A DNA stretch of 64,000 nucleotides from Actinocorallia sp. API 0066 (GTDB taxonomy: Bacteria; Actinomycetota; Actinomycetes; Streptosporangiales; Streptosporangiaceae): contig NZ_JAJLQY010000005.1 in assembly GCF_020991275.1 (NCBI RefSeq), positions 1 through 64,000 of the forward strand. Reading direction: 5' to 3'. The notes under the pieces are model-generated. The model was not told the DNA's origin and searched no databases. It saw nothing but the letters and a program-made list of their open reading frames with translations. The number at the start of each line of letters is the position of its first letter. Positions within the stretch are counted from its first letter, which is position 1. Shown here piece by piece: positions 6,355 to 50,529 of the stretch. Position numbers and translations under genes: made by a program.

Positions 6355-6508
6355 GATGCGCGGGGACCTCTCCCTCATCTTCCCTGCGCCGATCTGGTCG
6401 CAGGCCGGAGTTGGCACCTGTTCCGGCGTTGCGCGCGCGGGCTGCGCGGTGTGCCGGAAGGGTTGCCGGGGCTTCGCAGGGCCGGTCCCTCCACCCCTCT
6501 GGATGAGC

Positions 6509-6529
6509 GCCCGTCATCGAGTGACGGGC
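6509..6529. promoter_or_regulatory. Hairpin in the thrC leader
   Basis: GCCCGTCA, TCGAG, TGACGGGC: a perfect 8-pair stem with a 5-base loop, downstream of the putative thrC promoter and 155 bases before the start codon. It could be an attenuator or an mRNA-stabilising element. It does not match a known riboswitch that I recognise. Confidence 0.4.
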
Positions 6530-22959: not shown

Positions 22960-23033
22960 AGCCCCGTATCGGATTCGAACCGATGACCTGCTGTTTACAA
23001 GACAGCTGCTCTGGCCGGCTGAGCTAACGAGGC
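22960..23033 (-). tRNA. tRNA-Thr (anticodon TGT)
   Basis: The minus strand gives a full cloverleaf. The acceptor arm GCCTCGT pairs with ACGGGGC, including one T-G wobble. The D arm contains TAGCTCAGCCGG. The anticodon arm GCTGT-CTTGTAA-ACAGC has anticodon TGT, which reads ACA threonine codons. The T arm is ATCGG-TTCGAAT-CCGAT. The discriminator base is T at 22960 and CCA is not encoded. It lies 19 bases from rlmB on the same strand and has its own terminator. Confidence 0.96.
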
Positions 23034-48239: not shown

Positions 48240-48267
48240 GTCCCGATCCTATGTCCGGAAAAAGCGT

Positions 48268-48295
48268 TTGCCTGCACGCCGGAACCTCGCATAGT
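48268..48295 (+). promoter_or_regulatory. Candidate promoter of the mini-ORF RNA
   Basis: TTGCCT (48268-48273), 16 bases, CATAGT (48290-48295), about 35 bases before the mini-ORF. It is divergent from the Fur-family gene, whose start is 29 bases away. Confidence 0.5.
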
Positions 48296-48330
48296 TTCGG
48301 TGCCACGCAGGAAAGGAGGTGGTCCACGAG

Positions 48331-48369
48331 ATGATTTCTTCGAGGACTTGCGAGGTGGCTGCTCGCTAG
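48331..48369 (+). CDS. 12-residue mini-ORF with a strong ribosome site (leader-peptide candidate)
   Basis: ATG-ATT-TCT-TCG-AGG-ACT-TGC-GAG-GTG-GCT-GCT-CGC-TAG encodes MISSRTCEVAAR. AAAGGAGGT at 48312-48320, almost the full anti-Shine-Dalgarno complement, lies 10 bases upstream, and a promoter candidate precedes it. Such a strong initiation site in front of 12 codons is not expected by chance. The transcript would continue into a predicted three-way junction at 48422-48480. There is no downstream gene on the same strand for 780 bases, so this is not an ordinary leader peptide. A small protein or a translated regulatory RNA is possible. Confidence 0.55.
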   Translation: MISSRTCEVAAR

Positions 48370-48421
48370 GAGCGCCCGCACGGGACTTGCAGTCTCCTGG
48401 CGAATCTCCAGCAGACACCGG

Positions 48422-48480
48422 GTCCCCGGACCGCCGTCCAGTCCTGACGGCACGCCGCCCCACGCGGCAGGTCCGGGGGC
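48422..48480 (+). ncRNA. Predicted three-way-junction RNA (possibly with terminator function)
   Basis: P1 (48422-48432 with 48470-48480, 11 pairs including one G-T) encloses P2 (GCCGTC 48433-48438 with GACGGC 48446-48451, 7-base loop) and P3 (GCCGC 48454-48458 with GCGGC 48464-48468, 5-base loop). Junction linkers are 0, 2 and 1 bases. CTTTCGC follows. The compact closure suggests a folded RNA; a complex terminator is the simpler alternative. Confidence 0.5.
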
Positions 48481-48508
48481 TTTCGCATGTCGGGGGCCGC
48501 AGCCGGGC

Positions 48509-49148: not shown

Positions 49149-49221
49149 GCGCGGAGCATAGGCCATCGTGCCGGGCCGTGGCGGCCCCGGACGCACCCCG
49201 GGACTAGTCGGCGTGATCTTC

Positions 49222-49228
49222 TTGTTAT
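49222..49228 (+). promoter_or_regulatory. TTGTTAT box before TetR copy 1
   Basis: TTGTTAT lies 45 bases before the first tetR start. The same heptamer lies 41 bases before the second (49898-49904). A shared promoter or operator element is likely. Confidence 0.4.
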
Positions 49229-49266
49229 GTGAAGCGGGACGACCGGGGGCGGGAGTCCAGGAGGGG

Positions 49267-49863
49267 ATGACGGTGCCACAGCCGACGTCGGAGGAAGGCC
49301 AGCGGCTTCTGGAGGCCGCGTACGGGCTGTTCGCCGAGCTGGGTTACGACCAGACGGAGAGCCAGATGATCGCGGACGTCGCCGGGGTGTCGGTGGCGGC
49401 GATCAAGGCGGAGTTCGGCAGTAAGCGGGGCCTGTACCTGGAGGTGATGAAGCGGGTCCATCTGGAGGAACAGGAGATCTTCGAACAGATGGCCGCGCAC
49501 TACACGTACGACGCGGAGGGCCTGCACCGGATCGTCGACCGGTACCTCGACTACTTCGTGGACCATCCGCGCAGCGCCGCGCTGTGGGCGCAGCGGCGCA
49601 TGTACGACGCCACCGACCTCCGCGAGGTGGAGGTCGCCTACAACTATCCCCCGGCCCGGAACATCGTGGAGATGACCGCCGGCGCCGTCCGCCCCGAGGT
49701 GGACATGGAGCTGCTCGTCTGGACGATCGTGTGGGCGGTCCAGACCTTCGTCTACAGCGGGTTCCCGAACGCCGAGGGCGGCCGGGTGGACGCCACCGAC
49801 CCCCGGGCCCTGGAGCGCTTCCGCCGCCACATCCACACCGTCGTCGGCGCGCTCACCCGCTGA
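49267..49863 (+). CDS. TetR-family transcriptional regulator (tandem copy 1)
   Basis: A 198-residue TetR-like protein. The HTH is MIADVAGVSVAAIKAEFGSK (about residues 30-49), preceded by QRLLEAAYGLFAELGYDQT. The ligand domain includes HYTYDAEGLHRIVDRYLDYF, then DHPRSAALWAQRRMYDATDL and VDMELLVWTIVWAVQTFVYS. ATG 49267 directly follows AGGAGGGG (short spacing); GTG or upstream ATG starts are less likely. Its neighbour 75 bases downstream is a close paralogue of the same length, so this is a tandem duplication. No obvious target gene adjoins; the ligand is unknown. Confidence 0.88.
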   Translation: MTVPQPTSEEGQRLLEAAYGLFAELGYDQTESQMIADVAGVSVAAIKAEFGSKRGLYLEVMKRVHLEEQEIFEQMAAHYTYDAEGLHRIVDRYLDYFVDHPRSAALWAQRRMYDATDLREVEVAYNYPPARNIVEMTAGAVRPEVDMELLVWTIVWAVQTFVYSGFPNAEGGRVDATDPRALERFRRHIHTVVGALTR

Positions 49864-49938: not shown

Positions 49939-50529
49939 GTGACGGAGCCGGCTTCGGAGACGGGCCAGCGGCTGCTGGCCTCGGCGCTCGGGCTGTTCGC
50001 GGAACTCGGCTACGACCAGACGACGAGCCAGATGATCGCGGACGGCGCGGGGCTGCCCGTCGGCGCGGTCAGGGCGGAGTTCGGCGGCAAGCGCGAGCTG
50101 TACCTCTCGGTGATCAAGCACGTGCACGAGGAGGAGCAGCGGCTCCTGGAGCACATGATGGCCGAGTACACGCATGACGCGGCGGGGATCCACCGGCTCG
50201 TCGACCAGTACCTCGACCACTTCGTGGACCACCCGCGCAGCGCCGCCCTGTGGATGCAGCGCCGTATGTACGACGCCGCCGACCTCCGCGAGATCGAGAT
50301 CAACTACTCCTATCCCCAGATCGCCGCCGTCTCCGAGCTCACCGGCGATCTCGTCCGTCCGGGCGTGGACATGGAACTGGTCATCTGGACCCTCGTCTGG
50401 ACCGTCCAGACCTTCGTCTACGGCGGCATCCCGGACGAGCGCGGCGGCCGCTCCACCGCCAGCGACCCCCGCGCCGTCAACCGCTTCCGCCGCCACCTCC
50501 ACTCCTCCATCGACCCCCTCCTGCGCTGA
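49939..50529 (+). CDS. TetR-family transcriptional regulator (tandem copy 2)
   Basis: A 196-residue paralogue of the preceding gene. QRLLASALGLFAELGYDQTT and MIADGAGLPVGAVRAEFGGK form the HTH. The ligand domain repeats HDAAGIHRLVDQYLDHFVDH, then PRSAALWMQRRMYDAADLRE and VDMELVIWTLVWTVQTFVYG. Differences between the copies lie mainly in the recognition helix (SVAAIKAEFGS versus PVGAVRAEFGG), so they may have diverged in DNA specificity. The start is GTG 49939. A bidirectional terminator shared with rpoC follows. Confidence 0.88.
   Translation: MTEPASETGQRLLASALGLFAELGYDQTTSQMIADGAGLPVGAVRAEFGGKRELYLSVIKHVHEEEQRLLEHMMAEYTHDAAGIHRLVDQYLDHFVDHPRSAALWMQRRMYDAADLREIEINYSYPQIAAVSELTGDLVRPGVDMELVIWTLVWTVQTFVYGGIPDERGGRSTASDPRAVNRFRRHLHSSIDPLLR

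Follow-up and report, generated by a model that had tools for sequence, protein, structure and literature searches.

The initial annotation of the 64,000-nucleotide stretch of Actinocorallia sp. API 0066 analysed here (the window) listed promoter boxes, the motif AAAGGAGGT, a 12-codon ORF, and a compact three-stem junction in one intergenic region, and all of these elements are present. The question raised by this locus is why a small RNA with a predicted promoter and terminator also carries a ribosome-binding site (RBS) and a mini-ORF, and whether the peptide, its translation, or the RNA itself is the working part.

A stand-alone member of the Ms_IGR-5 family

The interval 48305–48486 (+) is a member of RF02471 (Ms_IGR-5), a family of stand-alone actinobacterial sRNAs. 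The Rfam covariance-model scan gives a match at 48305–48488 (+) with 106.6 bits against the gathering cut-off of 45 (E 5.3e-23), the only copy in the whole 7.0-Mb genome, and the locus agrees with the family in sequence, length, start position, and terminator position. The 5' end at 48305 is placed by the promoter spacing and the start of the Rfam model. The predicted fold of the 182-nt RNA is better than that of shuffled sequences (z −2.33; 3 of 200 shuffles equally good). The Rfam scan of the window reports no tmRNA family above its cut-off, and phage carriage was rejected, a single strict pattern giving 0 matches in viral_contigs. The window also contains a SAM riboswitch (RF00162, 72.1 bits, 6372–6509, − strand) and a tRNA (RF00005, 67.6 bits, 22960–23033, − strand).

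The family is already known, and the literature passages at hand give it no function; the Rfam output classes it as an sRNA and marks no ORF. According to excerpts of the respective papers, Ms_IGR-5 has RNA-seq support in S. lividans (PMC8079986), forms an sRNA transcription unit in S. avermitilis (PMC8780764), and is overlapped by a transcript in M. smegmatis (PMC10454040). Ribosome reads are reported on the M. abscessus and M. smegmatis homologues (PMC4974804), whose authors describe such RNAs as lacking clear evidence of translation. The titles and abstract beginnings of the open-licence PMC matches listed contain no report of the ORF, the 16S match, or the revised structure of Ms_IGR-5; relative to these passages, an ORF conserved independently of its peptide, a match covering the whole 16S tail, and the altered fold appear to be new.

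The promoter region has a −35-like box TTGCCT (48268–48273, +), one base upstream of the consensus position, and a −10-like box TAGTTT (48292–48297, +) at the conserved position. In the promoter consensus, derived from 272 distinct upstream 60-mers, the boxes are partly conserved, their bases being kept in about 46–67% of the sequences. An A-tract resembling an UP element is seen at 48259–48263 (+), with A in 56–72% at four positions of the upstream region; such a conserved A-tract upstream of the −35 box, observed here and in relatives, is reminiscent of stable-RNA promoters.

The unit ends with a branched terminator (48422–48480, +), predicted to fold into an outer stem and two hairpins followed by TTT. 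The outer stem 48424–48432/48470–48478, lengthened by two more pairs, encloses the hairpins 48433–48438/48446–48451 and 48454–48458/48464–48468; the linkers are 0, 2, and 1 bases long, CTTTCGC adjoins, and every pair of the junction has a predicted probability of at least 0.92. The compact junction described earlier is exact, and is the branched terminator of the RF02471 RNA; the Rfam consensus shows one inner hairpin in the terminator, whereas here there are two.

The statement that no gene follows on the same strand also holds, the next gene being convergent. It encodes a nitrobindin-like protein (Pfam THAP4_heme-bd) on the opposite strand; two similar tandem regulator-like proteins (TetR-like, by eye) are encoded beyond it at 49168–49863 and 49939–50529 (+). 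Upstream, facing away from the RNA, are genes for a Fur-family regulator and a YgfZ-like protein. The regulator had been described as Nur-like; the assignment to the Fur family stands, the Nur subtype is not confirmed, and no Fur subtype scores over the cut-off in NCBIfam. Among 249 loci with a downstream gene, the closest one runs towards the RNA in 182 and lies on the same strand in 67, as judged by crude ORF calling (256 loci examined, 7 without such a gene). A survey of neighbours in 267 of 275 loci detects Fur, YgfZ, or nitrobindin genes in 147 and none of them in 120, many loci having a flank of only 1.5 kb. By eye, among the loci listed, different neighbours are found in Streptomyces purpureus and two Amycolatopsis loci, among others.

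The extended ribosome-binding site and the mini-ORF

Loci for comparison were collected with the Rfam model (155 loci; 57 of 296 phylum genomes and 99 of 100 family genomes positive) and with a DNA pattern (at least 120 contigs). Because some bases of the RBS and ORF are already set by the pattern, base-conservation figures are given for loci found by covariance models (CM-found) only, and these models also favour the consensus. Alignment A1 comprises 98 of 233 candidates, taken from 275 loci and thinned for identity; model R1, with the revised structure given below, was built from 98 of the 275 loci. R1 matches 131 of 197 class genomes and 113 of 296 phylum genomes (all 57 Rfam-positive ones and 56 more), i.e., about twice as many of the latter as the Rfam model, the training loci coming partly from that sample. 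Ms_IGR-5 thus spans mycobacteria, streptomycetes, and distant actinobacterial lineages.

The 57 R1 matches in the 56 extra genomes, unused in building R1, form the out-of-sample set and bring the total to 332 loci (275 + 57); being chosen by R1, which contains both the RBS and helix Pa (see below), this set leans towards both. A second, weaker match in G312 was left out. Fifty-four out-of-sample loci were scored, giving 329 scored loci (275 + 54), and the remaining three were read separately: L279 and L324 have the RBS and an ORF starting with ATT, and the sequence of L332 ends before the RBS. All shuffle tests are inflated by kinship among the sequences. Two R1 matches per genome are seen in G224 and G465, with listed contamination of 7 and 5%, respectively; these are perhaps mixed assemblies.

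The 16-nt RBS GGAAAGGAGGTGGTCC (48310–48325, +), with the core AAAGGAGGT at 48312–48320 (+), is predicted to pair over all 16 bases with 5'-GGAUCACCUCCUUUCU-3', which we take to be the 3' tail of actinobacterial 16S rRNA. The tail was found in 0 of 21 genomes examined. Pairing of 15–16 consecutive bases with it, G–U allowed, is seen in 273 of the 275 loci, and the 54 scored out-of-sample loci show it too. Among 209 CM-found loci, no change is seen at the eight RBS positions that face C or A, whereas those facing U or G show 348 departures that keep the pairing versus 26 others, 24 of them at the outermost base. The 7.0-Mb genome has a single copy of the 14-mer AAAGGAGGTGRTCC, at this RBS, and the RBS:tail duplex (−29.8 kcal/mol) is the best found in the 64-kb window, the next site having −21.9. 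The tail sequence itself is the one given for other phyla in an excerpt of PMC6288834.

The mini-ORF MISSRTCEVAAR (48331–48369, +), with ATG at 48331, 12 codons, and TAG at 48367–48369, is conserved across loci. An ORF of 9–17 codons starting with ATG, GTG, or TTG is present at the expected place in 307 of the 329 scored loci (200 shuffles: mean 25.0, maximum 39), and with seven start codons allowed, in 327 (200 shuffles: mean 45.3, maximum 62). L022 and L164, the only exceptions, have ACG at the start place; L030 owes its count to an out-of-frame GTG present by chance and probably starts with CTG. Start codons are mostly ATG, TTG, or GTG, while CTG, ATT, ATC, or ATA occupies the same place in 16 loci. 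Within the 275 loci the ORF is 11–14 codons long, and exactly five codons separate the GAG of GAGGTG from the stop in 272. The initial annotation had named an absence of conservation in relatives as grounds for discarding the idea; the opposite is found, both the ORF and covarying helices being conserved across actinobacterial loci. The ORF conservation, together with the ribosome reads reported in the excerpt of PMC4974804, also supports the earlier suggestion of a translated small RNA.

The encoded peptide behaves differently. The residue preceding Glu-Val, Cys in the window, is Arg in 148 of 315 loci, Cys in 63, Ser in 41, Leu in 32, Val in 14, and, more rarely, Pro (9), His (4), Gly (2), Glu (1), or Tyr (1). 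Residues other than Glu-Val vary among loci, and the codons of Glu-Val are nearly fixed (GAG GTG in 195 and GAG GTA in 1 of 196 CM-found loci), therefore the constraint acts on bases. The endings TREVAVR and TCEVAAR recur in many genera among the loci listed. Twelve loci from five families (f22, f47, f53, f60, and f69) keep the start and the stop but read this stretch of the RNA in a different frame; these frame-switched loci (L269, L272, L279, L288, L291, L305, L313, L316, L320, L330, L331, and L333) have unrelated endings, e.g., …GGGSS*. Across the loci we find neither a conserved peptide sequence, as expected of a dual-function sRNA, nor a conserved regulatory codon, as expected of an attenuator leader. 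Judging from these comparisons, selection seems to act on translation up to this stop codon, and apparently not on the peptide.

The last explanation but one in order of merit, that of a dual-function RNA whose short peptide is the active product, was also raised initially and is very improbable. It is consistent with the conserved ORF and with the recurrent endings, but Glu-Val alone is steady, being fixed at the base level, and the 12 frame-switched loci keep start and stop with unrelated endings; the peptide as product was rejected, and the earlier term is not supported in its usual sense.

Pairing of the ORF with the pre-terminator segment

The initial annotation missed two features: how far the match to the 16S tail extends, and that ORF bases pair with 48410–48419 and 48394–48402. 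Helix Pa, seen both in covariation and in the predicted fold, joins ORF codons at 48354–48363 (+), i.e., GGTG and six variable bases, to the pre-terminator segment at 48410–48419 (+), which ends in CACC. Helix Pb, with support of the same kinds, joins the last codon, the stop codon, and three more bases (48364–48372, +) to 48394–48402 (+). The minimum-energy fold of the RNA from the window holds both helices unaided, with probabilities of 0.87–0.99 and 0.38 for one end pair; one of the ten Pa pairs in the window is G–A. Between the 3' strands of Pb and Pa, the unpaired AATCTCC (48403–48409, +) corresponds, by alignment column counts, to a conserved, one-sided internal loop of the AAUnCC type. 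The loop is kept as GCGAAUnCC(A) in distant lineages as well, and could be a site of protein or tertiary contact.

In A1, 90.7% of the cells of Pa (10 bp) are paired and 6 of 10 pairs are changed on both sides; for Pb, the respective values are 75.6% and 8 of 9. Four helices taken jointly are 83.5% paired, versus 32–42% when slid, and none of 500 shuffles reaches any of five measures. Positions 5–9 of Pa, tested in 252 of the 275 loci (23 left out, the anchor score being too low or the locus incomplete), give 415 pairings out of 515, compared to 345 ± 6 (maximum 365) in 2000 shuffles; position 6 taken by itself is weak, being equalled by 26 of 500 shuffles. For the 54 out-of-sample loci, chosen by R1, the Pa score in an anchored test is 496 versus 355 ± 12 (maximum 399; 2000 shuffles), this test covering helix positions 6–11, not 5–10. 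When the ORF segment of each of these loci was instead ranked among the ORFs of other loci along the entire downstream region, it came out best in 6 of 54, with a median rank of 6 out of 29; such a ranking is uninformative, GC-rich DNA giving many partial matches.

Examples of Pa strands are those of L108 (GGTGGTCGC/GCGACCACC) and L293 (GGTACCCGGC/ACCGGGTACC), and the contrast of L296 (GGTGACGAGG/CCTCGTCGCC) with L290 (GGTGATGAGG/CCTCATCGCC). GGTA replaces GGTG in three loci, with U opposite in L293 and L316, but not in the third, as aligned. Pb has weak spots: the stop codon's middle base is unpaired in 54 of 96 sequences, and several positions are no better than shuffles.

The Rfam consensus, in contrast, pairs the RBS with ORF bases and leaves unpaired the pre-terminator segment where our data place Pa. 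The Rfam stem is 91.2% paired, yet shows no covariation (132 of 500 shuffles as good), and was rejected as a supported structure; membership in RF02471 is unaffected. On comparative grounds, the published structure of RF02471 lacks Pa and needs revision.

A pseudoknot between GGAC of the ORF (48344–48347, +) and the loop bases GTCC of the first terminator hairpin (48441–48444, +) is possible, with thin covariation: 2 of 4 pairs are changed on both sides in A1, few loci varying. GGTC is found downstream in the five scored loci whose ORF has GACC or GATC (L019, L021, L249, L252, and L271). Against the pseudoknot, 84 of 256 loci have the downstream GTCC at a place that the single-sequence fold does not show as a loop; three GGAC loci have no GTCC, and two (L173 and L264) have GGTC instead. 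The alternative partner of GGAC, GGUCC of the RBS, matches it equally well and is 95.4% paired, with no double changes.

Ribosome gating, its alternatives, and related systems

Comparison of the loci thus establishes, at the level of sequence, three properties of this RNA: pairing of 15–16 nt of the RBS with the 16S tail, an open frame of 9–17 codons whose peptide is not conserved, and covarying helices between the ORF and the pre-terminator region. To read the ORF, a ribosome would have to sit on Pa and Pb or melt them, therefore translation and the fold would be mutually exclusive; since both are conserved nonetheless, switching between them is suggested as the function. Our preferred reading, with a probability of roughly 0.55, is that Ms_IGR-5 is a stand-alone, strongly structured sRNA which ribosomes gate: translation opens it, and without translation it closes. 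The 30S subunit would bind the long RBS, and the ribosome would read the mini-ORF to the stop codon; while reading or terminating, it would hold Pa, Pb, and the pseudoknot apart, and, given the size of a ribosome, one at the stop codon would probably keep both Pa and Pb open. When translation falters, the RNA would close into the compact form, so that ribosome availability may set two states. Least certain, one state alone may be active, with an effect in trans that depends on whether the pre-terminator segment is exposed or hidden, or on altered RNA stability. A very long Shine–Dalgarno match may hinder initiation, which counts against ribosome gating.

In the absence of any conserved codon or peptide, initiation or ribosome supply is the best place to look for the signal, as the exceptional RBS also indicates. 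A more specific version, in which the RNA is a sensor of ribosome supply or 30S maturity, the 16-nt match gauging free 30S subunits with a complete tail and mini-ORF translation switching a trans-acting pseudoknotted core between open and closed forms, is put forward tentatively.

The main rival of ribosome gating is a 30S-binding role. Here, the 16-nt match would itself be the working part, which holds, stores, or titrates 30S subunits, or else probes or assists the maturing 3' end of 16S, and the mini-ORF would let bound ribosomes start and leave. The extended complementarity with its pairing-preserving changes, the 14-mer unique in the genome, the strongest tail duplex found in 64 kb, and the promoter with its UP-like A-tract all agree with such a role; however, taken alone it leaves unexplained the conserved open frame running to a stop inside covarying helices, and we consider it rather unlikely. 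It is still less probable that Ms_IGR-5 is a base-pairing sRNA of the conventional kind, whose short ORF would be translated only to tune stability (e.g., by protection of the 5' end) and whose helices would only shape the RNA. The stand-alone unit with promoter and terminator fits this explanation, but placing the second half of the ORF in covarying helices would be costly for mere protection. The transcripts reported in the excerpts on S. lividans and S. avermitilis (PMC8079986, PMC8780764) fit it as well.

A cis-acting leader or attenuator, including one for metal, thiol, or redox signalling, is the least probable of all and was rejected: the ORF and terminator look attenuator-like, the Fur, YgfZ, and nitrobindin genes adjoin the RNA in Streptosporangiaceae, and of the proposed leader without a downstream gene the stand-alone character holds while the rest of the idea does not, but the downstream gene is mostly convergent, these neighbours were detected in 147 of 267 loci and none of them in 120, other neighbours being seen by eye in several genera, and the supposed regulatory Cys codon is variable (63 of 315, versus 148 for Arg).

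For ribosome gating, apparent selection for translation rather than for the peptide, combined with a full-length 16S match in a stand-alone RNA, suggests the ribosome itself as the signal. The start codon, Pa, the loop, and the length of the RBS are exact parts open to testing, and further "non-coding" RNAs that show ribosome footprints may likewise be translated for the sake of being opened.

Among known systems, dual-function sRNAs such as SgrS and RNAIII likewise combine a small RNA with a short ORF, whereas in Ms_IGR-5 the ORF is conserved and the peptide is not. Amino-acid attenuator leaders share with it a short ORF, pairing that a ribosome can prevent, and a terminator; unlike them, Ms_IGR-5 has no conserved regulatory codons and no regular downstream gene. 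The extended Shine–Dalgarno motifs of Staphylococcus aureus, as described in an excerpt of PMC13009471, likewise involve a start region that pairs with the 16S tail over an extended length; there this is a general feature of initiation, while in Ms_IGR-5 the 16-nt site belongs to a stand-alone structured RNA.
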